Made by a program: the position numbers and the translations under genes. Positions 21,969-53,309 of a DNA stretch of 64,000 bases are shown here, piece after piece (within the stretch, counting starts at the first letter, position 1; every line of letters starts with the position of its first letter). Source of the stretch: Lachnospiraceae bacterium (lineage in GTDB: Bacteria > Bacillota > Clostridia > Lachnospirales > Lachnospiraceae); NCBI GenBank assembly GCA_910575005.1, contig CAJTCL010000001.1, positions 248,001 through 312,000 on the forward strand, read 5' to 3'. Below the pieces are notes generated by a model, which made no database searches, was not told where the DNA came from, and saw only the letters and a list, made by a program, of their open reading frames with translations.

Positions 21969-22021
21969 CACAGACACCTCTCTTTCATTTCCTTCTATTC
22001 TAACACAGGCAAACACAATTG

Positions 22022-22063
22022 AGAAGCAGTGATTCCTGTACAATCTCAGAAATCACTGCTTCT
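22022..22063 (-). repeat. Hairpin upstream of AAA-like copy 1
   Basis: Arms 22022-22034 and 22051-22063 form a perfect 13-bp inverted repeat (AGAAGCAGTGATT) with a 16-base loop. It lies between the GT2 stop (22076) and the AAA-like start, about 55 bases before the ATG, with no good T run. A close relative occupies the same place before copy 2 (24902-24937), so the hairpin is part of the duplicated unit. It may end GT2 transcription. Confidence 0.6.
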
Positions 22064-24845: not shown

Positions 24846-24901
24846 CACAGACACCTCTCTTTCATTTCCCACTATTCTATCACAGGTAAGTATAATTGAA
24901 A

Positions 24902-24937
24902 AGCAGTGATTCCTGTACAATTACAGAAATCACCGCT
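24902..24937 (-). terminator. Hairpin between the nucleotidyltransferase and AAA-like copy 2
   Basis: Arms 24902-24911 and 24928-24937 pair along all ten positions in RNA with one G-U pair, and an inner CTGT/ACAG pair lengthens the stem. On the minus strand it is followed by TTTTC. It lies 51 bases after the nucleotidyltransferase stop codon and could end that transcript. It is the diverged relative of 22022-22063. Confidence 0.55.
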
Positions 24938-29818: not shown

Positions 29819-30601
29819 TCACCATTTTTTCCAGGGAGCATTCCCCTGTTCCCACAATCCTTCTAACAAATGTTTATCACGCATGGTATCCATGCATTGC
29901 CAAAATCCAGTGTGCTTATAAGCGGCAAGCATATGATCCGCCGCCAAATGATTTAACACTTCTCTCTCAAAAACCAAATTATCATCATCTCTTAAATAAT
30001 CAAAAATTTTCGGCTCTGCCACCATAAATCCTGCATTAATCCATGCTCCGTCCTCTTTCGGTTTCTCTTGGAACTTTTCTATTCCAATACTATCTTCATC
30101 AAAGTCTAGAACTCCAAAACGGCTTCCTGGTTGAATTGCTGTCATTGTGACCGTCCGTTGTCCCTTCTTATGAAATTCTAATAATTGATCAATATCAACA
30201 TTACTGATTCCATCACCATATGTAAGCATGAAAGATTCATTTCCCACATATTTATGTATTCTGTGTATTCTTGCCCCTGTCTGCGCTTTCTCACCAGTAT
30301 CTACCAATGTTACCTTCCACGGTTCTGCAATATTATTATGTACAATCATCTTATTATCTTCTGCAAAATCAAATGTTATATCAGAACGATGCAAATAATA
30401 ATCTGCAAAGTACTCTTTAATCACATATCCTTTATATCCACAACATATCACAAATTCATTAAAACCATAGCAGGAATAATATTTCATAATATGCCAAAGG
30501 ATCGGTGCCTCCCCAATCTCTATCATTGGCTTTGGTTTAATATAGCTCTCCTCACTTATCCTCGTCCCAAAGCCTCCTGCTAAAATCACTACCTTCATCA
30601 T
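29819..30601 (-). CDS. rfbF: Glucose-1-phosphate cytidylyltransferase
   Basis: This 260-residue enzyme makes CDP-glucose from CTP and glucose-1-phosphate. It has VVILAGGFGTRISEES (nucleotide loop, about 4-19), KPKPMIEIG, the metal-binding YGDGISNVDI near residue 130 and FWQCMDTMRDKHLLE at the C-terminus, all as in RfbF. Two ATG codons in tandem follow GGAG; the second (30598) has the better seven-base spacing. It is followed by a strong terminator and preceded by rfbG and rfbH in the same run, forming the CDP-3,6-dideoxyhexose entry pathway. A second, altered RfbF-like protein is at 60310. Confidence 0.93.
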   Translation of the reverse strand: MMKVVILAGGFGTRISEESYIKPKPMIEIGEAPILWHIMKYYSCYGFNEFVICCGYKGYVIKEYFADYYLHRSDITFDFAEDNKMIVHNNIAEPWKVTLVDTGEKAQTGARIHRIHKYVGNESFMLTYGDGISNVDIDQLLEFHKKGQRTVTMTAIQPGSRFGVLDFDEDSIGIEKFQEKPKEDGAWINAGFMVAEPKIFDYLRDDDNLVFEREVLNHLAADHMLAAYKHTGFWQCMDTMRDKHLLEGLWEQGNAPWKKW

Positions 30602-30629
30602 TCTTCTCCAATCTTCTCCGTTTTTATCT

Positions 30630-31691
30630 TCACACTATCTGTATACTTTCCTTTATATACTGATTAATCTGTTGTTCCATCACTTCTTTGCTATCACCAC
30701 CATCAAGATAGGCTTTATGCCACTTTACTGTCTGATCAATCGCTTCCTCTATCCCCCAAACCGATTTCCAAGACAACCTTTGTTTTATCTTAGAACAATC
30801 TAATCTCAAATAAGTAGCTTCATGAGGGCCTTGATCCTGTTGGCTTGCCCAGGAACAATAATCCCCCCACTTTGTGCAAAAAATATCTGTCAATTTCCCA
30901 ACCGTAACACAATCTTTTTCATCTGGCCCCACATTATAATTTCCCTGGACAGATGCATCCTCCCACTGTTTCTCTGAAATGAGCAAATATGCCATAAGAG
31001 GCTCAATCACATGTTGAAATGGACGTACCGCATATGGATTTCTAACAATAATAGTTTTCTCTTCCTCAGCCGCCCGAATACAATCTGGAATAATCCTGTC
31101 CTTAGAAAAATCTCCGCCACCGATTACATTTCCAGCCCTGGCAGTTGACACTCTGATATCCCTTTCATTCAAAAAAGATTTCTGATAACTGCTGGTAACT
31201 AATTCCGAACATGATTTACTATTAGAATAAGGGTCATAACCATTTAAATTCTCGTTTTCACGATATCCCCATTCCCACTCTTTATTCTCATATACTTTAT
31301 CAGTTGTTACATTGAGAACAGAGCGCACCGTCTTTGATTTCCTCACACATTCCAGCAAATTTACGGTTCCTAAGACGTTCGTTTCATATGTATATACTGG
31401 ATTTATATAGCTTTCACGGACAAGGGGCTGTGCTGCCAAATGAAATACTATTTCTGGCTGATATTCAAGAAATATTTTCTCCAAACCGGAAATATTTCTA
31501 ATATCTCCATTGCAGGAAATCATTCCCTCTGCTATATTTGCAATTTCAAAAAGATTTTTTATCTCAGATGATGGCAAGCTATATCCAATCACTTCTGCTC
31601 CTGCCATCTTTAATATGGTACATAACCAGGAACCTTTAAATCCGGTATGTCCTGTTACCAAAACTTTCTTTCCTTTATAAAACTCCAGCAT
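30630..31691 (-). CDS. rfbG: CDP-glucose 4,6-dehydratase
   Basis: This 353-residue extended SDR converts CDP-glucose to CDP-4-keto-6-deoxyglucose. It has KVLVTGHTGFKGSWL (NAD loop), FHLAAQPLVRESY, VTTDKVYENKEWEWG and DPYSNSKSCSEL, carrying the Tyr-x3-Lys pair and the Asp/Lys of the dehydratase site. ATG 31691 is chosen over the TTG/ATG further up because it fits the family N-terminus and lies after AAGGTGAGAGG. The start overlaps nothing but lies only five bases after the rfbH stop. A paralogue with the same motifs is at 61084. Confidence 0.93.
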   Translation of the reverse strand: MLEFYKGKKVLVTGHTGFKGSWLCTILKMAGAEVIGYSLPSSEIKNLFEIANIAEGMISCNGDIRNISGLEKIFLEYQPEIVFHLAAQPLVRESYINPVYTYETNVLGTVNLLECVRKSKTVRSVLNVTTDKVYENKEWEWGYRENENLNGYDPYSNSKSCSELVTSSYQKSFLNERDIRVSTARAGNVIGGGDFSKDRIIPDCIRAAEEEKTIIVRNPYAVRPFQHVIEPLMAYLLISEKQWEDASVQGNYNVGPDEKDCVTVGKLTDIFCTKWGDYCSWASQQDQGPHEATYLRLDCSKIKQRLSWKSVWGIEEAIDQTVKWHKAYLDGGDSKEVMEQQINQYIKESIQIV

Positions 31692-31695
31692 CCTC

Positions 31696-33042
31696 TCACC
31701 TTTTCCGATTTTTTTCCACAAACTCTTGTATTTTTGAAACCATATAGTCCATTTTTCTTTCTGTCATACCTGGGTAAACACCAATCCAAAAACTTTGATT
31801 CATAATATAATCGGTATGTTCCAATGTACCCACTACCCGAAATCCTTGCCCAGTTTTTCTCATCTCATCAAAACACGGATGCTTGATCAGGTTTCCTGCA
31901 AATAAATTTCTGGTCTGAATGGAAGATTCCTCCAAAAAACCCACCAATTCATTTCTGGTAAATCCTGCTTTCTCTTTGACAGTTATCAAAAATCCAAACC
32001 AACTTGGATCACTCCCATTCAATGCCTGCGGAAGAACCAATAGATCACTGAATTTCTCTAATTTTTCACGCAAATAATCCCAATTCTTTTTGCGTTTTTC
32101 GGCAAAGCTGTCTAACTTTTCCAACTGCGCACATCCTACCGCTGCCTGCATATCTGTTATTTTTAGATTATAGCCAAAATGAGAATATACATATTTGTGA
32201 TCATACCCTTGAGGCAATTCCCCGTACTGACCTTCAAACCTATGCTGGCAGGTTCCATCCATTCCAGGCTGGCAATAGCAATCTCTGCCCCAATCCCGAT
32301 AAGAATTTACCAAACGATATAATTGCTGGTTATCCGTATAAACTGCTCCTCCCTCGCCCATAGTCATATGATGTGGCGGATAAAAACTGGATGTTCCTAT
32401 ATCTCCAATGGTTCCTGTATATTTCCATTGACCGTCAATCAAAACCTTTGATCCTAATGCATCACAGTTATCCTCAATCAGCCATAATCCATGCTTTTTA
32501 CAAAAATCTCTTACTGTGACAACATCAAATGGATTCCCGAGTGTATGTGCCAACATAACTGCTTTTGTCTTTTCTGAATATGCCTCTTCTAAATGTTGTA
32601 CATCAATGTTATATTGCCCAATTGCTACATCCACAAAAACTGGTATCGCTCCATATTGAACAATAGGAGCAACCGTTGTGGGAAATCCTGCCGCAACAGT
32701 AATCACCTCATCTCCCTTTTTTATCTGCCGTTCCCCCAGTTCAGGAGCCGTCAAAGCCGAAAATGCCAATAAATTTGCAGAGGAACCTGAATTAGTCACA
32801 GAACAAAAACGTACTCCCAAATATTTTGCCAGACCGCTTTCGAATTTCCTTGTATATCTTCCCGATGTCAGCCAAAATTCCAATGAAGAATCGATCAGAT
32901 TTACCATTTCTTTTTCGTCAAAAATCCTACCTGCATAATTGACCCGATCTCCAAATTTATATTCTGCTTCATCAGCAAATTGTTGTTTGTAATACTGTTT
33001 TGTTAATTCCAGAATTTGATCTTTGATAGATTCTGCTGACAT
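31696..33042 (-). CDS. rfbH: CDP-6-deoxy-4-hexulose-3-dehydrase (E1), PMP- and Fe-S-dependent
   Basis: This 448-residue DegT-fold enzyme removes the C3 hydroxyl from CDP-4-keto-6-deoxyglucose. The usual PLP lysine is replaced by histidine in FYPPHHMTMGEGGAVYT (near residue 220), the hallmark of this family. Cysteines in DCYCQPGMDGTC (C-x-C-x7-C) fit its 2Fe-2S site, with a further Cys in IEDNCDALG. NSGSSANLLAF marks the phosphate-binding loop. AAAGGAGG precedes the ATG. Its electron-supplying partner reductase (RfbI/AscD type) is not in the window. Confidence 0.93.
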   Translation of the reverse strand: MSAESIKDQILELTKQYYKQQFADEAEYKFGDRVNYAGRIFDEKEMVNLIDSSLEFWLTSGRYTRKFESGLAKYLGVRFCSVTNSGSSANLLAFSALTAPELGERQIKKGDEVITVAAGFPTTVAPIVQYGAIPVFVDVAIGQYNIDVQHLEEAYSEKTKAVMLAHTLGNPFDVVTVRDFCKKHGLWLIEDNCDALGSKVLIDGQWKYTGTIGDIGTSSFYPPHHMTMGEGGAVYTDNQQLYRLVNSYRDWGRDCYCQPGMDGTCQHRFEGQYGELPQGYDHKYVYSHFGYNLKITDMQAAVGCAQLEKLDSFAEKRKKNWDYLREKLEKFSDLLVLPQALNGSDPSWFGFLITVKEKAGFTRNELVGFLEESSIQTRNLFAGNLIKHPCFDEMRKTGQGFRVVGTLEHTDYIMNQSFWIGVYPGMTERKMDYMVSKIQEFVEKNRKR

Positions 33043-40492: not shown

Positions 40493-41721
40493 TTTACTAT
40501 CTCCTTTTCTGCCACATAAGTCTTACTCTTTTTAAATAGATTTTCTTTTACAACCTCAAAGATTCTTTCCGCTATAATCTCATGCCCATATTGTGTGCTA
40601 TGGCACATATCATAGTACATATCTTTTTTCCCATCAAAAGCATCTGTTAAATCATACACATATTTCTTCTCTTTAACAAAACTTAATACTTCCTCATAAA
40701 AAATAGGCTGTCTCTCGATCAATTTCTGATATGCAGGTACAGCATGATAAGCAGCTTGGAACAATTCTTTTTGTTTTTTCTCAAAAACAGCCTTTCCTGT
40801 TCCCACCATCGGCTGCAAAAAACTAATGTATTCTATTCCAAACTCTTTACAAATACCATGCATTTTTCTAATACTGATTTTCCACTCAGATACATCACTT
40901 TGCTCTTCCACCCGCTTCAAACCATGAACTATCTCTCCTGCATTTCTTAGATCTAAAGTATCTGGTGCAAATCCCCCTTTATTTTCAATATGGTTATATA
41001 CTTTGCGCTCATATTTACTTAAATGTGGATATTCCGAGTCGATTACCCAACCATCTACATCATTAAAACCATCAAAAGAAATCACCATAGATAGCCTCAA
41101 TTTTAATCCATCTCTTAACAACTTATAAAACTCCTGATTAACAGAATAGGCTCCCATTCCACCGTTGTACAGTACAACATTTGAATTTATCTCATAGAGT
41201 TTTTCATACAAAATCTTTGCCCAACATTTGGAGACATTACCTACTGTTGGATCTGTTGTACTCCCTCCAAGAACCAAAATATTATAACCTTCTTCTTTTT
41301 CTTTCCCATAAATTTCAAACCCAAGCAGTTTACCATAAAATCGATTATGTCCCAACAAAGAATCAAATGCATCATACTTCTGAGAGTACCCTCCAAAACC
41401 ATACAATAAAAAATCTATCTCAAATTCAAATCCCATATTGATAAGAGAATTATAGATACTTCCATGATCTTTAAAAACAAACGCAACTATAAATATCTTA
41501 CCTTTTTCTTCATATAGCAACTCATATTGATTTTTTACTTCTTTTCCATAAAATTCCTTCTGGTCGGGATTTTCTGTTACAAAATATGCTAAATCATGTC
41601 CTAATTCCATAAGATCACTATATACATACCCGGACAGTGCATCCGTTCCATAAAAAATCAATTTTCGTCCTCTTGATATTTCTAATATTTTTCTCACTGA
41701 ATCCTTATAGCCTGAATGCAT
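40489..41721 (-). CDS. SGNH/GDSL-like protein with N-terminal Rossmann-like domain
   Basis: This 410-residue protein has a nucleotide-fold-like N-terminus (KLIFYGTDALSGYVYSDLM) and then an SGNH domain: NILVLGGSTTDPT near residue 150 (block I), LYNGGMGAYSVNQEF (block II), MVISFDGFNDVDG (block III Asn) and MCHSTQYGHEIIAER near 385 (block V His). It may add or remove an O-acyl group on the glycan. It overlaps the upstream radical SAM frame (TAATG) and the downstream carbamoyltransferase (ATGA), so these genes form a coupled set. No signal peptide is visible. Confidence 0.72.
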   Translation of the reverse strand: MHSGYKDSVRKILEISRGRKLIFYGTDALSGYVYSDLMELGHDLAYFVTENPDQKEFYGKEVKNQYELLYEEKGKIFIVAFVFKDHGSIYNSLINMGFEFEIDFLLYGFGGYSQKYDAFDSLLGHNRFYGKLLGFEIYGKEKEEGYNILVLGGSTTDPTVGNVSKCWAKILYEKLYEINSNVVLYNGGMGAYSVNQEFYKLLRDGLKLRLSMVISFDGFNDVDGWVIDSEYPHLSKYERKVYNHIENKGGFAPDTLDLRNAGEIVHGLKRVEEQSDVSEWKISIRKMHGICKEFGIEYISFLQPMVGTGKAVFEKKQKELFQAAYHAVPAYQKLIERQPIFYEEVLSFVKEKKYVYDLTDAFDGKKDMYYDMCHSTQYGHEIIAERIFEVVKENLFKKSKTYVAEKEIVK

Positions 41722-42946
41722 TAGTCTTCACCTTTTTCCACAAATGGAATCCTTTGCTCTGCTGCGGGAATTCTATTTATATGCATTGTGATATCTTTGC
41801 AAAAATCACAAGCTGCTAACGCATATTTTCTCTCTTGAAGCAATTTTTTTAAGTCTTCCCTAAATTCATCTGCTCCCTTTTCTATCGTATAATCTACATA
41901 ATCATCCTGAATACTCTCACAGAAACCTAAATTTGTCAGATGGGCTTGACGCTGACAACGATATAATTTTCCATTTAAGAACAAATGGCAATCTTTAAAA
42001 GAACAATTATTAAAAATTTTATTTCGTTTTTCCTCAGAATAATTGTTTCTTGTAGTGTCTCCCAAATCCTGCCAGTCCTCATTTGATAAAACATAATACT
42101 TAATCTGCTCTGCTTTCGCTATTTCGATCAATTCCTCCATCTTTAGAGATAAATTTCCATAATCATCTATTCCAAAAATCACCTTATCATTCTTAAGCAA
42201 TTCTATTTCTTTTTTATTTGGAATAATGGTCGAATTAGTCAGTACAGTTATACTCTTTATTTTCTCTTGATTAATCGCCCATTCAAGAAATTCAGCGAAA
42301 CCATTATGCATAAATACCTCCCCTCCAAGAAAACCAACTTCTAATATCTTATCCACAGATTTTACTAACCGCTCCAAGGCAGGGAGATTATGCATAAAAC
42401 AGAAATTATTTGGTTTTTGATAGTATGGCATCAATGCTATACATTTCTCACAATTTAGAGAACATCTTTCTGTGACAGAGATTCCAAGGAATGGCAATAC
42501 CATGCTTTCAGAATCATTCACTGTGTTTGATCTATTTTTATAATAATCATATTTTTCCAGAAGAAGTTCTCCACATAATCTATCATGGACATTAACAAAT
42601 GTTTTTGGTTTTGGAGACTTTAAAATCTCGCTAATCTCATATACATGATCCATATTTCCATCATTCAACACATATAATTCATTCACAATTTCATCATATG
42701 CGGAAGGCGCACAAATTAATATGTCATAATCAGGATAGTTTCTTATCTCCTCCTTTTTGATAATTCCAGTGCCTGTTTTCATTCTATCTATAAATAGTAT
42801 TGGAACATCTATACTTCTGCCCCCCCCCCATTCAGAACATCTGTTTGCAGCGTTTCCAGTACAAGTTTTCCCCAGGCTCCTGCCCCATATAACAATATTC
42901 CTTTTGCATTTTTTAATTCTTGTAATGTATATTTTTTAATTTTCAT
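41721..42946 (-). CDS. Radical SAM enzyme, phase-variable (out of frame here)
   Basis: ATG 42946 with GGAGAGG opens a Rossmann-like start (GILLYGAGAWGKLV), but after 39 codons a run of ten G shifts the frame to a stop, giving 45 residues. The second frame (to 41721) carries on the same domain (GRSIDVPILFIDR, then DILICAPSAYDEIV). It then has the radical SAM cluster CSLNCEKC, GFLGGEVFMHNGF, ITVLTNST and C-terminal cysteines (CSFKDCHLF, CRQRQ..., CDFCKD). With 8 or 11 G the locus would encode one protein; 11 G gives 408 residues. It is thus likely a contingency gene in the OFF state, not a decayed one, because both frames are otherwise intact. Confidence 0.85.
42820..42829 (-). repeat. Poly-G(10) slippage tract in the radical SAM gene
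   Basis: Ten C on the plus strand, ten G on the coding strand, begin exactly at codon 40. The distance between the two open frames (42946 to 42782 is 164 bases) shows that adding one base or losing two joins them. Confidence 0.9.
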
Positions 42947-43013
42947 ACCAATCCTCTCCTACATAACCTTAAAACATTTGTCTTAAAATATTCTTTTTCT
43001 TAAGCTCTAAATT

Positions 43014-44114
43014 CTATGGAACATAGGCATATAACTTTTTCCATTTATGTTCTATTACATAATTAGGATTAATAGTTCTTATTCTATCTTCTAATACTTC
43101 TTTATCATCTGGCAAATGATAGGTACATATAGAAATCTTAGGGCTAAATCTCCTTATGGTATCTTCAGCACCTTTTAACATATCTCTTTCAGAACCTTCA
43201 ATATCTGCTTTTATATAATCTACACGATCTAATTTCTCCTGTTGTACAAAACGATCAATTGTCATAACTTTTACTTCATAATCCTTATCAATAACATTAT
43301 GGCCTTCTAACAGAGAAGCACCTATTAAATCGTTATTTTGTACATGAAATACAGCCTTACCTTCTTGATCTGCCAATGCATAGGGCATAATCTTTATCTG
43401 CTCTGGATATAATTCTGACACCTCTTGCAAATAGGCAATCGCATCCGGCATTGGTTCAAAAGCATAGCATGTACATCCTTTCCTCGCTGCTATAACAGAA
43501 AACAATCCTATATTCGCACCACAATCTAATACAATGTCACCCTTTTGCAGTTCTGTATGCTCTCTCTCATAGCTTCCTTCATCTATTCTCCCATAATCGT
43601 TATATATTACCGGCAAAATCAAATCTCCAGCTTCATATACCCAGGAAAGTAAATAATCATCTTCCTTATTAAATGGATTGATAAAATTATATTTATCAAG
43701 CTGAAGCATACTGTTCAAACAGTCTACATCCTTCTCCCTAAGGTAATCCAAATAATACTTTGCCTCAATCAATGTAATATCTGTTGGATAAGTGACTGGA
43801 TATACTACCGAAAATATGGAGCCTAACTTCTCATTGAGCTGCTTATCCTGATCTCTCAAGGCAACAAAAATATTTCCATTCACTCTGGTTTTTTCCACTT
43901 CACTTGTGGAAAAAACCGGAATACCTTCTATCTCTTCTATCTTTTTATCACTGACCACAAAACCTTCCACAGAAAAGCCCAATGCCCTTACTGCACATAA
44001 AAATTTTCTTCCCATCCAGCCACAGCCAAATATATAATTCTTCTCTTGATTCTGAAGAATCTCTAACATTTTCGATACTTTAAAATCGATTGTCCTTGCA
44101 TCTCTTGCTTTCAT
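43014..44114 (-). CDS. FkbM-family methyltransferase with N-terminal Rossmann-like domain
   Basis: This 366-residue protein has an N-terminal KNYIFGCGWMGRKFL segment (Rossmann-like) and a helical middle. Its FkbM-type SAM domain contains IVLDCGANIGLFSVIA near residue 195, CYAFEPMPDAIAYL, YIKADIEGSERDMLKGA and SPKISICTYHLPDD. FkbM enzymes O-methylate hydroxyls, often of sugars. Unlike two paralogues in this window it has no poly-G run and is intact (the corresponding place reads EQIKIMPYALADQ). The ribosome site is weak. Confidence 0.88.
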   Translation of the reverse strand: MKARDARTIDFKVSKMLEILQNQEKNYIFGCGWMGRKFLCAVRALGFSVEGFVVSDKKIEEIEGIPVFSTSEVEKTRVNGNIFVALRDQDKQLNEKLGSIFSVVYPVTYPTDITLIEAKYYLDYLREKDVDCLNSMLQLDKYNFINPFNKEDDYLLSWVYEAGDLILPVIYNDYGRIDEGSYEREHTELQKGDIVLDCGANIGLFSVIAARKGCTCYAFEPMPDAIAYLQEVSELYPEQIKIMPYALADQEGKAVFHVQNNDLIGASLLEGHNVIDKDYEVKVMTIDRFVQQEKLDRVDYIKADIEGSERDMLKGAEDTIRRFSPKISICTYHLPDDKEVLEDRIRTINPNYVIEHKWKKLYAYVP

Positions 44115-44117
44115 CTT

Positions 44118-45197
44118 TTATCTTACCACTCCATCTATGAAATCTTCCGCCGTGAATGCTTCCTTATAACTTATTGGTAATGGCTTTCCATAAAATTTAG
44201 ACATATAATTTCTTATAAAATTCTTATGTTCTCCAGATAAACATAATGGTTGATATTCATTAAACCACTTGATTCTAAGCCCTCTCTCAATAATATCCTT
44301 TAATGGCTCCTCAAAAATATTACCTATGGAAATATGAATAAATGCACATGGCAAAATATCTCCATACTTTGTCAAATGTAAAATATGTCTGACAGTGCCA
44401 CAGCCTCTGTCTTGACCATAACTTGGGTAAGTATCTCTCATCAATGCAGGATATTTATTTCTTAACTCCTTCAAATAATCATCATCTTGTTTTGTGATTA
44501 AAACTTCTTCTTTTCCTTCCCATGCACCTATTGCGCGCGCAATTAAAATATCCAAATTAAAGCCATTGTCATTTGCAAACTTTGCCAATGCCTCTGTCTC
44601 TGGTGTTTGACAAGATTGGTGACTAATTACTGTATTAATACCTGTCTGCATACCAGCTTCTTTCGCATAAAAAAGCGCCTGGATTGCTTTATCATATGCA
44701 CCATTCTGGCCTCTTGTCTGCTTATATTTCTCTTCATCAAAACTATCTAAGCTAATGCGGATTTTATCTACACCAACTTCTTTTAAGTGTTTCGCTTTTT
44801 CTTCTGTCAACAATAAACCATTGGAACTAATTGCTATATGAAATTTCTGTGGATCCAACGCAGCTATAATATCGTCCAAATTATCAAATGCCAGTGGTTC
44901 TCCACCCGAAATATTAAACTGGGCAAGTCCCAAATCATCTGCCTGCCTTGCAAAATCTTTTAAATCTTCTAATGTCATTTCTCGTTCTCTTTTTTCAAAA
45001 GACAAATTGCAGCAATGTTCACAATGCATATTGCATTTATAATCAAAACAAAAGTCTATGATAGCAGTACATTCTCCTCTAGCAACTTTTTCATCATATT
45101 TAATAATTTTTTCATATACCAAAGGTTTTTCCGCTTTTAATTTTGCACGTCTTGCATTTTCTACTGGTTTTCTGCTTTCCTCGTTAATCTTGATCAA
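44118..45197 (-). CDS. Radical SAM/SPASM-like enzyme (TTG start)
   Basis: This 359-residue protein has CNMHCEHC (CX3CX2C, near residue 55), NISGGEPLAFDN (GGEP SAM motif), IAISSNGLLL and DKIRISLDSFDEEKY. A C-terminal region has GCGTVRHILHLTKYGDILPC, then LCLSGEHK, with cysteines for auxiliary clusters. I place the start at a TTG (45197) because AAGGAGG lies eight bases upstream; a longer frame from a GTG at 45239 has no site. It is the most classical radical SAM of the five here. A substrate in glycan modification is inferred from its neighbours (FkbM genes on both sides). Confidence 0.85.
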   Translation of the reverse strand: MIKINEESRKPVENARRAKLKAEKPLVYEKIIKYDEKVARGECTAIIDFCFDYKCNMHCEHCCNLSFEKREREMTLEDLKDFARQADDLGLAQFNISGGEPLAFDNLDDIIAALDPQKFHIAISSNGLLLTEEKAKHLKEVGVDKIRISLDSFDEEKYKQTRGQNGAYDKAIQALFYAKEAGMQTGINTVISHQSCQTPETEALAKFANDNGFNLDILIARAIGAWEGKEEVLITKQDDDYLKELRNKYPALMRDTYPSYGQDRGCGTVRHILHLTKYGDILPCAFIHISIGNIFEEPLKDIIERGLRIKWFNEYQPLCLSGEHKNFIRNYMSKFYGKPLPISYKEAFTAEDFIDGVVR

Positions 45198-45261
45198 CTT
45201 ATTGTCCTCCTTATATTTTGCCCAATTGCTATGCCACACGCTTTATGGCTTCCAAAATTAT

Positions 45262-46391
45262 TTATTTTTCTACATATGCATAGCAAACAGTTTCTGCCTC
45301 AAAATCACTGTGATGTCTAATCATAATCTTATATTCTGGATTCAAATTTTTAATATAAACTGGAATATTTAAAAAATCTTCACTGGAATGATAAATACAA
45401 ATCGCTAATGTGGGCTTCTGACTTTTAATCAAAGCCTCTGCCCCACGCAATGCCCGCATTTCACTCCCCTCAATATCCATTTTTATGAAAGTCACTTTCT
45501 TATCATGCAAGATATGATCTAACGTATCGACCTCACAACACTCATCTCCATCTTCCGAAAACTTGGTAGCAGTAGAATTACTATCATAATAAAATGTTCC
45601 TTTACAATCTGACACTCCCATCTGATATAAATTCATCCTGCAATCGGAACCGCTATACCCCCCCCTCGTATTTTGGCGTTTGTTTGCAATTTATTATAAT
45701 TTTCTTGATCCATCTCAAATGCGTAGATTTTCTCATACTGATTTGAGGTTACCTTTTCAAAGCTTCTAATAGTATCACCATCATACGCTCCTACATCTAC
45801 TAAACATTCTTGATCTGTAAGTTTTATCTGATCTGTAAAAAAATAAGATTCCCCATTATATGTAATAGGCGTTTCATCATCAATAAACCACTTCTTAAAT
45901 GTTTGACAACAAATTTCTCTTGACATATCATCTTGACACAGTTCCATAACGTTCAACATTTTTTGATAAGCCTCATTTATATCTTTGCCCATTGCCAGAT
46001 AATCATAATTTGCCATAAAACTAAAAATGTTGATTGACGCCACGAAAATACTGCTCTCCTTCAGATAAGCCTGTACTTGCCGATAGACTGCTTCATACTC
46101 CCTAATTGCCAAAACGACAGCTGTATTTTTCTCTGGTTCTTCCCAGGGAAGACACATGATACCATCTACAATTTCTTGATTCCATTTGCTTTTATCATTA
46201 TCATAGAAACAATCAACCTTTATATCATATTTCTTTAAAATACCATACCAGTTATGCCCATGTGAACCTGTGCCAAAAATGCAGATTCTTTCATGTGTTT
46301 TTAACGCATCTAACCACTTTTGTGCATAACCAATTTTTATTTCTTTTACCTGGTTCATCAGTTCTTTCATTTTTTCTTTTTGACAATTCAT
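45262..46391 (-). CDS. FkbM methyltransferase, phase-variable (out of frame here)
   Basis: ATG 46391 (GGAGG six bases upstream) opens a protein with RICIFGTGSHGHNWYGIL (Rossmann-like), ECLVDVGAYDGDTIRSF (SAM motif) and KIYAFEMDQENYNKL. Then a run of eight G leads to an early stop at 45633 (252 residues). The other frame holds the rest of the FkbM fold: [60 protein letters not shown]. With nine (or six) G the protein is complete; nine G gives 376 residues. Both parts are free of other lesions, so this looks like a contingency locus in the OFF state. It should O-methylate a sugar when ON. Confidence 0.86.
45658..45665 (-). repeat. Poly-G(8) slippage tract in an FkbM gene
   Basis: Eight G on the coding strand follow NAKIR. 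The distance 46391 to 45636 (755 bases) lacks one base for a common frame, so nine G joins the two halves. Confidence 0.88.
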
Positions 46392-46450
46392 TTTTGTCCT
46401 CCAAAACTTCCATTTTCCACCAGAATATTTCAATCTCTTTCATTTACGTT

Positions 46451-47539
46451 CTATAAGACCGCATAACAAACCGTCTCAAACATTACCTCTGTATAATGAC
46501 GAATATAAATTTTATACTCTGGATTCAGTTGTTTTATTAAAACTGGTAATTCAAGCATATCCTGCGGACTGTGATAGATACAAATTGCCAACACTGGTTT
46601 CTGAGATTTGATCAACTCTCTTGCACCCTCCAGCGCACTTTGTTCAGCTCCCTCAATATCCATCTTAATAAAGGTTACTTCCTCACCTGCCAGAACCTCA
46701 TCCAATATTTTTACTTGCCCAATTAACTTTTCCTCTTTTCCATTTGCCGCCGCTATTGCACTTTGAATTGAAGAATTGCGTTCTCCTGATACAAATTCAA
46801 TCTCTTCATTTTTATCTGATACCCCGTAAGGGTAACACTGTACATTCGGCACTCTAGCCATATTTCTTTCAAGTTCTCCGTAGATCGTTGGAGATAATTC
46901 AAACAAATGCATTTTCTTATATTTCCCATGACTGGCCTTCAAAAAATCTCTGGCTGAATCTCCTGTATATGCTCCACAATCCACAAACACTTCCTGTTCT
47001 CCTAACTCAATAAGTCCTTTTTCAAAATATTGATTATCAGAACAAATTTTTTTAAAATAATTGTCTGGAATATCTTCCATATTCCAAGAAGCAACCAAAT
47101 GTTGATACACTTCTTTTGATCTCTCGTCCGCTAAAATCTCTAAAACTTTCTCAACTCTTTGCTCTAAATTCTCTCTATTCTCATTTACATACTCTTCTGC
47201 AAAAATTTTCTCAAAAAAAATCCGTACACAATTCTTAATACCATCACTGGCTAATTGCTCCTTTATCGCATCATAATAAAATGATGATTCCACAATTACT
47301 ACCACATCATCTGAATCCATGCTCACCAGCTCTGGATAGGATATACATTTTGTACCATTGTAAGATGTGCCCCAGACAGCCTTATTGTTATCACAAAAAA
47401 AATCAACCTCTATTGATCTTACGGACAGCTTATCTCTCATATCCCTGCCGCCAACTCCCATTGGAAAAATGCATACCTTTTTCCCCTCTAACTTCTCCTT
47501 AATTTTTCTTAAATATCTAGCTTCCACTTTATCGTTCAA
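46451..47539 (-). CDS. FkbM methyltransferase, intact paralogue (TTG start)
   Basis: This 362-residue protein has KKVCIFPMGVGGRDMRDKL (Rossmann-like), EVFVDCGAYTGDSARDFL (SAM motif), [60 protein letters not shown] and [18 protein letters not shown]. It is close to the protein split at 47609-48665 and, at the place where that one has poly-G, reads ARVPNVQCYPYG. The start is placed at a TTG (47539) with AAAGGTGG seven bases upstream. It likely methylates a sugar hydroxyl. Being tract-free, it should be constitutively in frame. Confidence 0.85.
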   Translation of the reverse strand: MNDKVEARYLRKIKEKLEGKKVCIFPMGVGGRDMRDKLSVRSIEVDFFCDNNKAVWGTSYNGTKCISYPELVSMDSDDVVVIVESSFYYDAIKEQLASDGIKNCVRIFFEKIFAEEYVNENRENLEQRVEKVLEILADERSKEVYQHLVASWNMEDIPDNYFKKICSDNQYFEKGLIELGEQEVFVDCGAYTGDSARDFLKASHGKYKKMHLFELSPTIYGELERNMARVPNVQCYPYGVSDKNEEIEFVSGERNSSIQSAIAAANGKEEKLIGQVKILDEVLAGEEVTFIKMDIEGAEQSALEGARELIKSQKPVLAICIYHSPQDMLELPVLIKQLNPEYKIYIRHYTEVMFETVCYAVL

Positions 47540-47608
47540 GTAATAACCACCTTTCAATCATAATGATTAATTTCCTTTTCAAGTAAGTGAAAGCATTTCT
47601 TCCAAATT

Positions 47609-48665
47609 TTATAAAACGGCGTAACAAACTGTTTCTAACATCATGTCTGTATAATGCCGTATATATATTTTATATTCAGGCACAAGAGATTTGATATAGA
47701 TTGGAATATTTAACATATCTTGTGGGCTATGGTAGATACAAATTGCCAATTTAGGCTTTTGAGATCTTATCGTATTCGCGGCTCCCTTTAAAGCAGCCAA
47801 TTCAGAGCCTTCAATATCCATTTTTATAAATGTAACCCGTTCGCCTTTTAAGACGTCATCCAATTTTCGTACTTCTCCAATCATGTTTGACTCTTTGCTG
47901 CCATTGATGGATGAATTGCTGTCACCTCCTGAAAAACTCACCTTTCCATTTTCATCCGAAAGACCGTATGGATAACAGCAATTCTCCCCCCCCCCCTAAA
48001 TTTGTTAAATTTAAGTTTAATTTTTTATAAATGCCAGGATCGAGTTCAAACAGATGCATCTTCTCATATTTACCATTACAAAACTTTAAAAATCCTTCTG
48101 CGGTGTCTCCAATATATGCCCCTCCATCTACAAACACTTCGTCCTCGTGAAGCATTACAATAGTAGGATCAAAATACTGATTTTTTTCATAGATACATTC
48201 AAAGTAATTATCTGGACAATTTTCCAATTCCCAGGACTCCACAAGATACTTAAAAATTTCTTTAGACTTCTCATCCGCGCAAATATCCAAAACCGCATCC
48301 ATAGACTGTTTTAAATCCATCTTGTGCTCCATTACAAATTGATCTGTCGCAAACTTCTCAGGATATACGCGCAGAATATTTCTTATTCCATGCTCCTGCA
48401 GATCCTGTTTAATTTCCTTATAATACAATGATTCCACTATAACTACTATGTTTTCTTGTTTCATCTCTGATAACTGTATCTTAGAAATACATTTCTTAGC
48501 GTCAAACTCTGAACCCCATAACTCTGGATTACTATCGGAAAAAAAGTCTATCTCTATACCATAGTTCTTTAATTTCTGGTACGTAGATTTTGCCGCAATT
48601 CCCATAGGAAACATGCAAACTTTTTTTCCTTTAATCTGCTCCTTTATCCTCTCTAAATATTTCAT
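47609..48665 (-). CDS. FkbM methyltransferase, phase-variable (out of frame here)
   Basis: ATG 48665 (GGAAGG upstream) starts [10 protein letters not shown], then [37 protein letters not shown] and [15 protein letters not shown] run of eleven G leads to a stop at 47952 (237 residues). The other frame continues [53 protein letters not shown] and [18 protein letters not shown]. With ten G the protein is 351 residues and matches its neighbour 46451-47539 along its whole length. Coding quality on both sides argues against a dead gene. Confidence 0.87.
47986..47996 (-). repeat. Poly-G(11) slippage tract in an FkbM gene
   Basis: Eleven G on the coding strand follow NLTNL. The distance 48665 to 47941 (724 bases) is one base too long for a common frame, so ten G joins the halves. 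The tract sits at the same alignment position as the one at 45658. Confidence 0.9.
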
Positions 48666-48685
48666 CTCTATATCCTTCCTCAAAA

Positions 48686-50455
48686 TTATTGTTCACAATC
48701 CACTGGCGGCCACATCTCCTCTAACAATGATGACTGCATCCTTCCATCCGGCAAACGGAAACTCTTCGTTCTCGGTGATACCGTCTCCTCCGGTGAAATA
48801 ATCACTTCACACAACACAGGTCCCTCTGTATTCAATACTTCAGACAAAATCTGCTCTGCTTCTGTATTATCTGCCATCCGAAATACTGGTATCTCATAGG
48901 CCGCTGCCACCTTACAAATATCTGGCATCTGCAAGCCGCTTGAACGGCCGCTCGCCACATAATGACCCTCAAACGTATTTCTTTGCATCGAACGAATACT
49001 TGCATACCCATCGTTATTCCAAATAAACATTTTAATGGGCAGTCCTAAACGCTTGACCGTTTCTAATTCCTGCAAATTCATTTGGAACGCTCCATCCCCA
49101 TTGATTAAAACAGTTCTTCTTTTATCATTCGCAAGACAAGAACCAATCGCATATGGCAGACCAAATCCCATAGAACCCAGTCCTGCTGCATTTTTCATTT
49201 TCTGGCCATACTTAAGTTGGAAGGCCTGATAAGTAATCTCACCGGCAGCGCCCGAGCTTTCCGGTACAACAACATCATGTTCTGTTAATTGATTACACAA
49301 TCTATCAATAAAGTAGTATGCACTTACTTTATCCTTAACCTTCTGGTGCTCCTCTGTTACCACAGGATATTTCTGTCTCACCTTATGACATTCCTCCAGC
49401 CACAAATCCCATTCTCTTACTTGAACATCCCAGTTCTCTCTTTTGACAGCACTCAGCAGCTTATCCAGAAAATCTCCGGCATCACCGATTACTTTATCTT
49501 CCACCTGTTCCACTTTCATTCTCTTTAATTCATTCTCATCTATATCCACAATCACTTTCTTTGCAGATTTAGCGAAATTCTTTTCATTAAAAGCAGTGAG
49601 GCTTGTGTCCAGACGGCTTCCCACAGAAATCAATAAGTCTGCGGACTGTAAAATTAAATTAGCCCCACGATCTCCCATAGCTCCTGGATGTCCTGCATAC
49701 AGTCTGTCTTCTTCATCCATCATATCTATGGTTTTCCATGTAGTCTGAACCGGAACTGGTAATTCTTCCAGCAATTGTTTTAATATATGTTCTGCTCCCG
49801 CGAGTTTAATGCCATTACCAGCCAGTATCAATGGCTTCTTAGCACCTTTTAACAGATCAATCACTTTTGTAATTGTTTCTTCTGCAACACAATCTTCTGC
49901 TTTATCAGGATGATATGCCTCTAAGGAATTTTCATCAATCGACATTCCTTGGATATCCAGCGGAATAGATAGCCACACAGGTCCTTTTCTTCCAGTAGTC
50001 GCTTCTGCATAGGCTCTCTCCAGATGATAGCGAATCTCACCAGCATCCATAACCTGTACAGCATATTTTGTAATAGGTTTCACCATATCAATTATCTGTA
50101 CTTCTTGTGAACCAATTTGGCGGACTCCAGTACTTCCAATTAAGTCTTCTCTCTTTGCTTGTCCTGATAAAATAAACATAGGAGTAGAATCTATCCATCC
50201 GGCAGTTACTCCTGTTATTGCATTTGTTGCTCCAGGGCCAGATGTAGTAAGACATACCCCTATTTCATTTGTATGCTGCCCATAAGCTTCTGCGGCAATC
50301 GCTGCTGCTTGTTCATGAAGACAGCACACATAGTCTATATTCGATTTTCCTAATGAATCTACCAGATGCATAGCACCTCCACCTGGCAGCATAAAAACAT
50401 GGCTAACCCCTTTTGATTTCAAGAAATCAAAAATATAATCTGATACTTTTATCAT
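48686..50455 (-). CDS. ThDP-dependent enzyme, acetolactate synthase/YerE-like
   Basis: This 589-residue protein has the three ThDP-enzyme domains: CLHEQAAAIAAEAYGQ (catalytic Glu48), SGPGATNAITGVTAGWIDS, a central FAD-type domain (ISVGSRLDTSLTAF), and the ThDP motif GDGAFQMNLQEL (453-464) ending in WNNDG. It is like acetolactate synthase large subunits, but no small subunit or ilv genes are nearby. In Yersinia, YerE of this family adds an acetyl unit from pyruvate to C4 of CDP-3,6-dideoxy-4-ketoglucose to start yersiniose. rfbFGH in the same run would supply that substrate. The YerE-like role is inference. AAGGAGG lies five bases before the ATG. Confidence 0.85.
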   Translation of the reverse strand: MIKVSDYIFDFLKSKGVSHVFMLPGGGAMHLVDSLGKSNIDYVCCLHEQAAAIAAEAYGQHTNEIGVCLTTSGPGATNAITGVTAGWIDSTPMFILSGQAKREDLIGSTGVRQIGSQEVQIIDMVKPITKYAVQVMDAGEIRYHLERAYAEATTGRKGPVWLSIPLDIQGMSIDENSLEAYHPDKAEDCVAEETITKVIDLLKGAKKPLILAGNGIKLAGAEHILKQLLEELPVPVQTTWKTIDMMDEEDRLYAGHPGAMGDRGANLILQSADLLISVGSRLDTSLTAFNEKNFAKSAKKVIVDIDENELKRMKVEQVEDKVIGDAGDFLDKLLSAVKRENWDVQVREWDLWLEECHKVRQKYPVVTEEHQKVKDKVSAYYFIDRLCNQLTEHDVVVPESSGAAGEITYQAFQLKYGQKMKNAAGLGSMGFGLPYAIGSCLANDKRRTVLINGDGAFQMNLQELETVKRLGLPIKMFIWNNDGYASIRSMQRNTFEGHYVASGRSSGLQMPDICKVAAAYEIPVFRMADNTEAEQILSEVLNTEGPVLCEVIISPEETVSPRTKSFRLPDGRMQSSLLEEMWPPVDCEQ

Positions 50456-50470
50456 AACGTCCTCCTTGAC

Positions 50471-51523
50471 TTACTGATACAATTCATGTTCCACATATTC
50501 TGCAATCAAATGCCCTATAAAAATATGTGCTTCTTGTATCCTTGGTGTTACCTTGGATGGTATTTTCACAATATAATCACAAATATCCTGCAATTCCTGA
50601 TTATAATACTCACCCATTAACATTACTGTCCGCATTCCCTGCTTCCTTGCAAATCGAATTGCTTCCAGTACATTCTTAGATTTCCCGCTGGTGGAAATCC
50701 CGATTAACATATCGCCTGATCTTCCCTTAGCTTCCAACTGCCTTACAAATACACGCTCGTAACTATAATCATTTCCGATCGCTGTTAAGGTGGAAGTATT
50801 GACGCTCAACGCCTCCGCATTCATTGCTGGACGTTCTTTATAAAAACGACTTACAAATTCTGTTGCTATATGCTGTGCATCTGCTGCACTCCCACCATTG
50901 CCGCAAAGAAAAATCTGCCCTTTCTCTTTTTGAATCTTAGCGGTTTCTATAGCAATTTCCATTACAGTTGAAATCAACTCCTGATTCGAAATAATTTTTT
51001 TAAAAATATCTGTATGTTCTTCCCAACGCTTGTAGAAATAATGTTCAGGAAGTTCTTCTTGATTCAAATTTTTAAGAATCCCAATCAATTCCCACAGACA
51101 ACCACCGCCCCCGTCAGACTGCAGAATAATATCTGCAGAACGCTTTGCCTGATCAATGGCATCTCCTGGACAGATTCCAACTCCAGCATACTTAAGGGGT
51201 TCTACATCATATTTTCCATCTCCGATATAACAAATCTCTTCTCTCTTAACACCAGTTTTCTCTTCCAGTTCAATAAGAGTCTCTTTCTTATGCTTATTAC
51301 CGCGATAAAAATATTTCCAAGGAAATCTATTTTCAAAATATGATACAATCTCAGTATCTTCTCCTGTAATTGCTGCTAGGAGAAACCCTTCCTTTTCCAG
51401 TTCAAAAATTGCATCTATATCTTTCAAATTGATCTTCTTCTGCTCTCTTCCCTGTATGTCAACTGTTACCGTACCATCTGTAAGTACCCCATCTATATCA
51501 AAAACAAGTAATTTTATCATCAT
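50471..51523 (-). CDS. Fusion of KdsC-like HAD phosphatase and GmhA-like SIS isomerase
   Basis: This 350-residue protein has two enzyme domains. Residues about 1-150 are a KdsC/CMAS-type HAD domain (LVFDIDGVLTDGTV near the start; ICYIGDGKYDVEPLKYAGVG). Residues about 190-350 are a SIS domain of the phosphoheptose-isomerase type (LCGNGGSAADAQHIATEFV; DMLIGISTSGKSKNVLEA). The first would dephosphorylate a sugar or ulosonate phosphate, the second would isomerise a sugar phosphate. ATG 51523 starts one base after the NeuB-like stop. Proximity to NeuB suggests one pathway to a 3-deoxy-ulosonic acid or a heptose-derived sugar. Confidence 0.85.
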   Translation of the reverse strand: MMIKLLVFDIDGVLTDGTVTVDIQGREQKKINLKDIDAIFELEKEGFLLAAITGEDTEIVSYFENRFPWKYFYRGNKHKKETLIELEEKTGVKREEICYIGDGKYDVEPLKYAGVGICPGDAIDQAKRSADIILQSDGGGGCLWELIGILKNLNQEELPEHYFYKRWEEHTDIFKKIISNQELISTVMEIAIETAKIQKEKGQIFLCGNGGSAADAQHIATEFVSRFYKERPAMNAEALSVNTSTLTAIGNDYSYERVFVRQLEAKGRSGDMLIGISTSGKSKNVLEAIRFARKQGMRTVMLMGEYYNQELQDICDYIVKIPSKVTPRIQEAHIFIGHLIAEYVEHELYQ

Positions 51524-51524
51524 C

Positions 51525-52349
51525 CTAACCCCGCAGCTTCGCTTTGACTTGCAACTCAGCATCAGTAAGGATCTTTTCGCCAGTTCCTAAAATCAATTCT
51601 GCTTCTCTGATTTCTCTCACAAGCCTGCATAACTCTTCTGGCTCAATAGAAGCTTTCTGGTCACTTCCATACATGTTCTGATTCAGAGTGATATGGCGTT
51701 CGATAGATGTAGCGCCTTTGGCAACTGCACAGACACTCACTAAAGTTCCTGCTTCATGTCCGCTATATCCCACTTTACAGCCATATCTTGCACTAAGCTC
51801 GTCCATCACATTAAGGTTAGCATCTTCTGGTTTCATGGGATAAGTACTGTTACAATGCATCAATTCAAATTCACAACCATTGTTCTTAAAAATTTCAACT
51901 GCATGATCAATCTCTTCGTATGTACTCATTCCCGTTGCAATAAAAGTATATTTTCCTTCTCTTGCAATCTCCTCAAGAAGCGCATCATTTGTAAGCATAG
52001 CGGAAGCAACTTTATTATATTTTAAATCAAACTGCTGTAAAAATTTCTGTGAATCTATGTCCCATGCGGAAGCAAACCATTCGATTCCTCTTTCTTTACA
52101 ATATCTGTCTATCTCCTGATAATCCTCTAAGCCAAATTCCAAACCTTCCTTTTGTTCCCGCTGTGTTGTTCCCCAAGGACTTTCTCTAAATCCGTCCAAG
52201 TACTCTTTGGTATAGACCTTATCTATTGTTCTTTTTTGAAATTTAACCGCATCGCATCCTGCAATGACTGCCAAATCAATCAGCTTCTTTGCCAATTGCA
52301 TATCTCCATTATGATTAATTCCGATTTCTGCTGTCACGAAAATTGACAT
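51525..52349 (-). CDS. NeuB-like PEP-condensing synthase without SAF domain
   Basis: This 274-residue TIM-barrel enzyme of the NeuB family condenses PEP with a sugar aldehyde. It has TAEIGINHNGDMQLAKKLID, AVKFQKRTI, FIATGMSTYEEI, LMHCNSTYPMKPED, VGYSGHEAGT and SIERHITLN. Typical NeuB, LegI or PseI are about 340-370 residues with a C-terminal SAF (antifreeze-like) domain; here the protein ends after the barrel. No CMP-sugar synthetase (NeuA-like) is in the window. It is the first gene of the long minus-strand run, with AGGAGG before the ATG and a palindrome 20 bases further upstream. Confidence 0.86.
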   Translation of the reverse strand: MSIFVTAEIGINHNGDMQLAKKLIDLAVIAGCDAVKFQKRTIDKVYTKEYLDGFRESPWGTTQREQKEGLEFGLEDYQEIDRYCKERGIEWFASAWDIDSQKFLQQFDLKYNKVASAMLTNDALLEEIAREGKYTFIATGMSTYEEIDHAVEIFKNNGCEFELMHCNSTYPMKPEDANLNVMDELSARYGCKVGYSGHEAGTLVSVCAVAKGATSIERHITLNQNMYGSDQKASIEPEELCRLVREIREAELILGTGEKILTDAELQVKAKLRG

Positions 52350-52533: not shown

Positions 52534-52736
52534 TTCATATGCAAGTGATTTTAATATTTTTCATGTGGAAAATAAGGCCAATTTAACTAAAATCAGAGAA
52601 TTAATCCTTCTTTTGAGGTATAAATGCTGTATTTTAATACATCATTATATCACAAAACAGTTATAAAATTTCGGTGCCTTTTTCTCCAAATTAGACTATG
52701 CTTGTATATATTATAAACCAGGAGGTATATCTATAT

Positions 52737-53309
52737 ATGGCAGCAACAGAACCAATCCGAAATAAAAAACAGTTTAAAGAACTTGCAGAGTATTTCCTGC
52801 AGAAAGGACAACTGCGCAATTATACCATGATCATCATGGGAACATACACAGCATTGAGAATCAGTGATTTACTCCGTCTAAAATGGTCAGATGTTTATGA
52901 TGAAGAGCGGCAGGTATTCTTCACCCATGTCACAATTACAGAGCGAAAAACAGGTAAAATCAAGACAATTGCTTTAAATGCACAGATCTTAGGTGCATTG
53001 CGTCAGTGTTATTCTCAGCGACGCTGTGAATACATTTTTGCCAACAATCGCAAAAATGCCAAAGCAATTAGCAGAGTTCAGGCATGGAGAATTATTCATA
53101 CAGCCGTGGACGTACTTGGCTTTGCAGGCAAGATTGCCTGTCATTCTTTGCGCAAAACCTGGGGATACCACGCTTGGACAAGCGGCGCAGTATCACCTGT
53201 TGTTATTATGGAAATTTACAACCATAGCGATTTTAAGATCACAAAACGGTACCTAGGAGTAACGCAGGATGATTTAGATAAAGCTTATTTAGAAATGGAA
53301 TTAATATAA
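52737..53309 (+). CDS. Small tyrosine recombinase (FimB/FimE-sized)
   Basis: This 190-residue protein is the catalytic domain of a tyrosine recombinase with no DNA-binding core extension. It has TALRISDLLRLKW with Arg41, a beta-hairpin lysine Lys71 (TERKTGK), HSLRKTWG with His136 and Arg139, YNHSD with His163, and TKRYLGV with Tyr172 as nucleophile. The size fits DNA invertases such as FimB/FimE. AGGAGG lies 11 bases before the ATG. No other mobile or phage gene is near. It is flanked by an inverted pair of 24-bp sites and separates two divergent glycan operons, which suggests a switch rather than an element integrase. Confidence 0.88.
   Translation: MAATEPIRNKKQFKELAEYFLQKGQLRNYTMIIMGTYTALRISDLLRLKWSDVYDEERQVFFTHVTITERKTGKIKTIALNAQILGALRQCYSQRRCEYIFANNRKNAKAISRVQAWRIIHTAVDVLGFAGKIACHSLRKTWGYHAWTSGAVSPVVIMEIYNHSDFKITKRYLGVTQDDLDKAYLEMELI

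Follow-up and report, generated by a model that had tools for sequence, protein, structure and literature searches.

The window analyzed here, by which we mean the whole 64-kb stretch of a Lachnospiraceae genome from position 248001 to 312000 of contig CAJTCL010000001.1, contains exactly three runs of at least 7 G or C residues, which read as C on the plus strand and as G on the minus, coding strand. With lengths of 10, 8 and 11, they lie within 5.2 kb of each other and fall in one gene for a probable radical SAM (S-adenosylmethionine) protein (gene 1) and two genes for FkbM-type methyltransferases (genes 2 and 3; Table 1). At all three, the longest open frame before the tract differs from the one after it, which places the genes out of frame (43 and 365 open codons upstream and downstream of the tract in gene 1, 258 and 131 in gene 2, and 232 and 124 in gene 3). 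Apart from the tract, none of the genes has a stop or other lesion that would close either of its pieces; the length of the tract thus sets the frame of an otherwise intact gene, as at a contingency locus. Counting the runs and analyzing the frames bears out the original prediction, an earlier reading of this DNA that had assigned one out-of-frame G-tract to each of these three genes. We consider it very likely that the tracts are contingency loci underlying a phase-variable decoration of glycans.

The downstream pieces of genes 2 and 3 match the FkbM family Methyltransf_21 (PF05050) with 43.0 and 45.3 bits against a cut-off of 22.7. That of gene 1 matches Radical_SAM (PF04055) with an E-value of 3.4e-05 and 24.5 bits, below the 29.5-bit cut-off, and it contains the segment CSLNCEKC, which we take to be the CxxxCxxC motif of radical SAM proteins. 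In genes 2 and 3, the tract occupies the same place in the alignment, after the FEMDQENYNKL-type segment and before the MGVSD or CYPYGLSD segment. The tract-free proteins have a loop of variable length at this site, namely NMARVPNVQCYPYGVSD in paralog B and the longer NISNFREGKVKKEKIICYPYGLAD in the ortholog from a relative (G001). The alignment accordingly agrees with the earlier placement of both tracts at one position, in a variable loop; this part of the claim does not extend to tract 1, which lies in the N-terminal part of the radical SAM protein. A scan with Rfam gave 0 matches at gathering scores, a tandem-repeat scan found three short rows, none of them at the poly-G tracts, and an initial pattern scan of contigs with the gene 3 piece gave 11 matches with no relative among them.

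Most of the scanned open reading frames of the window code for glycosyltransferases, nucleotide-sugar enzymes, NeuB, carbamoyltransferases, methyltransferases and radical SAM proteins. All five flagellin N-terminal matches of the genome fall on the contig of the window, two below it (contig positions 199184 and 243975) and three above it (324324, 330761 and 348975). The flagellin gene at 243975 adjoins glycosyltransferase genes, an arrangement of the kind that marks flagellar glycosylation islands. Since flagellin genes flank a window filled with glycan genes, we propose that it is such an island, a reading that covers the window and its flanks apart from 312001-324323. Our preferred reading is that of a phase-variable island for the glycosylation of flagella or another surface structure in a Lachnospiraceae-like bacterium, with flagellin as the putative acceptor.

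Table 1. The tracts, the genes that carry them and the adjoining genes, in window coordinates
Feature	Position	Strand	Basis or remark
Poly-G tract 1, 10 G on coding strand	42820..42829	-	run count, frame analysis
Poly-G tract 2, 8 G	45658..45665	-	run count, frame analysis
Poly-G tract 3, 11 G	47986..47996	-	run count, frame analysis
Gene 1, whole, probable radical SAM protein	41721-42946	-	tract early, after 39 codons
Gene 1 piece upstream of tract, 39 residues	42830..42946	-	our reading: opens a Rossmann-like N-terminal domain
Gene 1 piece downstream of tract, other frame; probable radical SAM with CxxxCxxC (CSLNCEKC)	41721..42818	-	Pfam, translation
FkbM methyltransferase paralog A, intact, tract-free	43014..44114	-	PF05050, E 6.7e-21
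Radical SAM/SPASM protein, intact	44118..45239	-	PF04055, E 2.4e-28; PF13186
Gene 2, whole, FkbM methyltransferase	45262-46433	-	tract after SAM-binding half
C-terminal FkbM half of gene 2, after the tract and in another frame	45262..45657	-	PF05050, E 6.7e-11
N-terminal domain with SAM-binding half of gene 2, before the tract	45666..46433	-	alignment; without Pfam match of its own
FkbM paralog B, intact, tract-free, close relative of gene 3	46451..47557	-	PF05050, E 7.8e-13
Gene 3, whole, FkbM methyltransferase	47609-48683	-	tract after SAM-binding half
C-terminal FkbM half of gene 3, after the tract and in another frame	47609..47983	-	PF05050, E 1.4e-11
N-terminal domain with SAM-binding half of gene 3, before the tract	47997..48683	-	alignment; without Pfam match of its own
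Thiamine pyrophosphate (TPP)-dependent enzyme adjoining the module	48686..50455	-	our reading: also beside the tract-free FkbM ortholog in G001
HAD/SIS protein and NeuB-family synthase, upstream genes on the same strand	50471..52349	-	Pfam

Long G runs in the genome and across the genus

The genome to which the window belongs (G000; 4.29 Mb in 88 contigs) has 25 G/C runs of at least 7, distributed by length as 15 of 7, three of 8, one of 9, four of 10 and one each of 11 and 12. Seven runs thus reach at least 9 against about 0.75 expected by extrapolation from the ratio of length-7 to length-8 runs (Poisson P 1.4e-5, or 3.8e-4 at a ratio of 0.3). Three of the ten runs of at least 8 are those within the 5.2 kb (simulated P 0.0005). 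The genes at eight of the 15 length-7 runs were scanned with Pfam: each is a single open frame, and seven match unrelated families (FTHFS, MnmG, ProRS, PlsY, ABC, CobB/CobQ-type and DUF885), with the eighth being without a match. Twenty arbitrarily placed 20-kb stretches from four genomes of the genus (400 kb in all) lack any G/C run of at least 7, while 37 runs in them reach length 6. The homopolymers are therefore of the length typical of contingency loci (7-8 or more G/C) and exceed chance; these counts, the excess and the clustering run counter to the objection, raised with the original prediction, that such runs might be common and randomly placed.

By place, the seven runs of at least 9 are split between the window (two), a second contig, C11 (three), the start of an integrase gene (one) and non-coding DNA (one). 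Five of them are in glycan regions, in genes for a radical SAM protein, an FkbM protein, an MBOAT acyltransferase, a DUF6020 membrane protein and a two-domain PglD acetyltransferase. Of the three on C11, the MBOAT tract is out of frame in a gene 27 kb away from the polysaccharide region of that contig; the DUF6020 tract, at the start of its gene with different longest frames before and after, and the out-of-frame PglD tract both lie within this region, together with phosphoenolpyruvate mutase, sugar transferase and DegT genes. The run at the integrase gene, on contig C15, is a G10 that ends 9 bases before a possible ATG, at the position expected of a ribosome-binding site (L103:7010-7019).

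Homopolymers are error-prone in sequencing, and the genome comes in 88 contigs, with the sequencing technology not being known; hence, the frameshifts might be artefacts, with the true lengths keeping the genes in frame. An error of this kind could shift a length by one, but would not create runs of 8-11 Gs or their excess. Out-of-frame tracts are also found in the less fragmented genomes G024 (4 contigs), G044 (5) and G013 (10), whose technology is likewise not known. We regard an assembly or sequencing error as very improbable.

The genus, a poorly studied one, was sampled with 29 genomes, one per species, among which 26 have a total of 180 runs of at least 9 (none in G004, G005 and G041). 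For 178 of them, two runs at contig edges (G007 and G017) being left out, the flanking open frames served for classification; a frame had to reach 60 codons and exceed the next one 1.5-fold. Clearly intragenic runs read as G number 53, of which 28 keep the frame and 25 break it; five more are intragenic but read as C (2 in frame, 3 out). Among the rest, 40 have a long frame only downstream and 20 only upstream. Given that 25 of the 53 are OFF across the genus and that three tracts would all be out of frame by chance with P = (2/3)^3 = 0.30, we reject the idea of a coordinated all-OFF state in the window; the weight that the original prediction gave to this state adds nothing to the case.

We scanned 102 tract-bearing pieces with Pfam, taking the longer piece for each gene-touching, G-read run of at least 9 and dropping two low-complexity loci. 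The control consisted of 101 background open reading frames (102 drawn, with one very long one left out), and the top 25 families of each set were tallied, such that one protein can match several. Among the families so listed, the pieces match Hexapep 9 times, Acyl_transf_3 8 times and PglD_N 7 times, followed by methyltransferase profiles (at most 4 each), group-1 glycosyltransferases (3), MBOAT (3) and GNAT profiles (at most 3). In the control, at least two of the 101 frames match each of 16 families, which include none of those just named. Taking the control as having one member, the enrichment has a P of 0.019 for Hexapep and 0.035 for Acyl_transf_3, and is weaker for PglD_N (0.065), Methyltransf_11 (0.37) and MBOAT (0.62).

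Tract lengths and frames differ between relatives at homologous sites, which are other sites of the genus and not those of the window. The two-domain PglD gene is in frame in G023 (9 Gs) and G012 (11 Gs), out of frame in G000 (12 Gs) and G024 (13 Gs), and tract-free in G044. We considered and rejected the alternative that the G000 locus is two genes with a tract between them: in G023, a single frame is open for 219 codons before and 205 after the tract, and the locus is therefore treated as one two-domain gene. The tract lies between the two domains (L100:17819-19109 on C11; homologs in G023, G024 and G012), and with a broken frame each domain might be made separately. Another gene, by our own reading a probable acetyltransferase (Pfam gave no match for the piece scanned), is a single open frame with 9 Gs in G024, whereas its G044 counterpart has 10 Gs and is out of frame; the aligned flanks are 99.8% identical. 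A methyltransferase whose frame differs between G014 and G042 does so through a base beside the tract and not through tract length. The rarity, length and clustering of the tracts, the five of seven long runs in glycan regions and the mixed frames and varying lengths in relatives uphold the contingency-locus character that had been claimed. Across the genus, the near-even split of frames and the varying lengths also contradict fixed ON or OFF states for the class, an outcome that would have counted against the claim.

Proposed phase variation against loss of function and transcriptional slippage

In the mechanism that we favor, the poly-G runs in coding sequence would gain or lose Gs via slipped-strand mispairing in replication, such that, for each gene, some cells would make the full-length protein and others a truncated one. 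Switching of these genes, which encode a pair of FkbM-type methyltransferases and a probable radical SAM enzyme within a large glycosylation island flanked by flagellin genes, would alter the decorations of a flagellar (or other surface) glycan, leaving the backbone genes untouched. The assembled sequence would then capture a state with all three genes OFF, and the three switches would give eight combinatorial glycan states, with glycoforms differing by +14 Da among the predicted products. No tract-bearing ortholog of genes 1, 2 or 3 was found in the 29 genomes; hence, we infer their switching within a population from the form of the tracts and the behavior of the class, while their substrates and the flagellar target are putative.

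Alternatively, genes 1-3 could be pseudogenes in which frameshifts arose by coincidence within G runs and became fixed. None of the three genes is in frame, nor is any of the three clearly intragenic runs of at least 9 in the genome, though counts per genome are small, and the ortholog of gene 3 in G001 is tract-free. Conversely, there is no stop in either piece of any of the genes other than at the tract, the chance of three long G runs in 5.2 kb is low, and about half of the intragenic tracts of relatives (28 of 53) keep the frame. The ratio of nonsynonymous to synonymous substitution (dN/dS) between gene 3 and its G001 ortholog is 0.18 upstream and 0.10 downstream of the tract, and seven comparisons involving OFF genes elsewhere give 0.05-0.26 on both sides. 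These ratios speak for purifying selection on both halves of OFF genes, and so for long-term constraint, although a recent loss would not show in them. On balance, we find fixed pseudogenes very improbable.

The same constraint would also be accounted for by transcriptional slippage, in which RNA polymerase adds or drops Gs and a fraction of the mRNA is in frame, yielding constant low expression with no heritable ON and OFF states. Slippage of this type is described for poly-A tracts in Buchnera (PMC2831843). Alone, it leaves unexplained the differences in DNA length between closely similar sequences of different species, and we hold it to be very improbable as the sole explanation; replication slippage and transcriptional slippage may nevertheless act together.

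Several observations weigh against phase variation of the window genes. The only close ortholog of gene 3 (G001, 56% identity) is intact and tract-free, with no G/C run of at least 6 in the 3.7 kb around it; a TPP enzyme gene and a radical SAM gene lie beside it. Close relatives of genes 1 and 2 were not found among the 29 genomes, where the best match had 33% identity over part of the length for the former and 30% identity for the latter. Synonymous sites are near saturation in nearly all the dN/dS comparisons, and low ratios over long times are compatible with a recent loss of function. Tract 2 is short, with 8 Gs; 60 of the 178 classified runs fit no gene; the enrichment per family is modest (P 0.02-0.6); and with one genome per species, switching within a population is not visible. 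Finally, some 46 and 28 kb separate the tracts from the nearest flagellin genes on either side, so that flagellin is a putative acceptor of the glycan.

Promoter-spacer tracts and the flanks of the runs

In Neisseria, which belongs to a different phylum, promoter-spacer poly-G switches such as that of porA have the tract between the -35 and -10 hexamers. Of the 167 distinct tracts of the genus studied here, 16 likewise lie between near-consensus hexamers (at most two mismatches in both together, with a spacer of 15-19 including the tract), against a mean of 0.4 and a maximum of 3 in 500 shufflings. By this sequence criterion, they form a promoter-spacer class of putative switches separate from the tracts of the window, which are in coding sequence, unlike those of the porA type. 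Tracts in TTGACA/TATAAT-like spacers occur at L106:3827 and 18361 and at L107:1358, 6269 and 9447 (G013), with five promoter-spacer tracts falling within 26 kb in this genome. Others are at L113:4808 and 7427 (G022), at L208:2511 (G042), and in L173, L182, L183 and L226.

The dinucleotide TA directly follows 88 of the 180 runs of at least 9 (for example, L111:16203, L114:10198 and L136:2530), whereas AT, its mirror image, precedes the run in 11 cases. In background sequence, TA follows 99 of 1623 G4 and 18 of 325 G5 runs (about 6%). A sample of 147 other genomes of the phylum, one genome without runs having been left out, gives 57 of 546 runs of at least 9 (10%), a comparison in which base composition differs and most runs were not viewed in context. 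For other families of the order, the count is 17 of 50; we discarded an earlier view that TA is absent there (0 of 7 loci), as the seven loci proved unrepresentative of the whole. The bias persists when promoter-like tracts are set aside (64 of 151) and in intragenic tracts (27 of 53). In fifty intragenic, G-read tracts, moreover, A accounts for 52-62% at positions -10 to -7, and 52% have C at -1. The TA flank is weak in the window's own genome, where it follows one of the seven runs of at least 9 and, within the window, only the 8-G tract 2. As a guess, a soft TpA step might aid strand slippage. That the shared context (abundant A at -10 to -7, a frequent C at -1, and TA after the run in coding and non-coding DNA alike) reflects a dedicated or strongly context-dependent process that makes or keeps poly-G switches, both translational and promoter-spacer, is an unlikely though tenable proposal.

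Relation to known systems and further features of the proposed island

Homopolymer phase variation is known mostly from pathogens, and Campylobacter and Bifidobacterium each belong to a different phylum from the bacterium studied here. The comparisons below refer to the excerpts of the cited papers available to us. The Campylobacter phasome, for which a homopolymer cut-off of 7 is used (PMC6321876), includes poly-G tracts in flagellin-modification genes (Cj1295 and the maf groups) and, in C. fetus, in radical SAM and SAM-dependent methyltransferase genes (PMC6321876, PMC3068675). It resembles the present system in having intragenic poly-G of about 7-11 in flagellar modification, methyltransferase and radical SAM genes, with lengths that vary between Campylobacter strains; it differs in that FkbM, double PglD, MBOAT and DUF6020 genes carry tracts here, where switching is predicted from sequence. 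Since genes for flagellar and surface glycans that vary in phase through poly-G are described for Campylobacter (PMC6321876), the earlier label of an undescribed system was too strong. In Bifidobacterium breve, replication slippage at a G-tract switches pili (PMC9187656), which parallels the present case in intragenic G-tract slippage, a gut commensal host and a surface structure, though the target is pili and not glycans. Clostridium flagellar glycosylation islands share a variable glycan gene region with flagellin, methyltransferase and nonulosonate genes (PMC13317340); in the excerpt of that paper, "phase-variable" and "homopolymer" occur only in the titles of Campylobacter references.

Among the papers listed on phase variation in Lachnospiraceae, Firmicutes or Clostridia/Clostridium, or on FkbM with homopolymers, in a search outside of which most subscription journals fell, we found no report of poly-G switching in Lachnospiraceae. 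Poly-G phase variation is itself known from Campylobacter and Bifidobacterium. If our interpretation is correct, Lachnospiraceae-like gut bacteria would have a genus-wide poly-G repertoire whose targets include acyltransferase, methyltransferase and glycosyltransferase genes. Surface glycans, and possibly recognition by phages and the immune system, would then vary from cell to cell, a variation that deep sequence data could reveal through the lengths of the tracts. Specific, testable predictions follow from the gene list and from the shared flank.

Beyond the tract-bearing module, the nucleotidyltransferase, dehydratase, long DegT and TPP enzyme genes at 29819-33042 and 48686-50455 resemble what we take to be a branched-sugar (yersiniose-like) pathway. 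Relatives of the TPP enzyme occur in 11 records, eight labeled Lachnospiraceae and one each Eisenbergiella, Robinsoniella (both members of Lachnospiraceae) and Oscillospiraceae; the guts of rabbits, water deer and horses are among the sources that the sample names suggest. Two AAA-ATPase-like/PDDEXK_9 genes of nearly equal length (20262-22043 and 23145-24920) are located among the glycosyltransferases. Where the main gene direction of the island flips, there is a gene of the phage-integrase family (52698-53309; 203 residues), which may be an inversion or mobile remnant.

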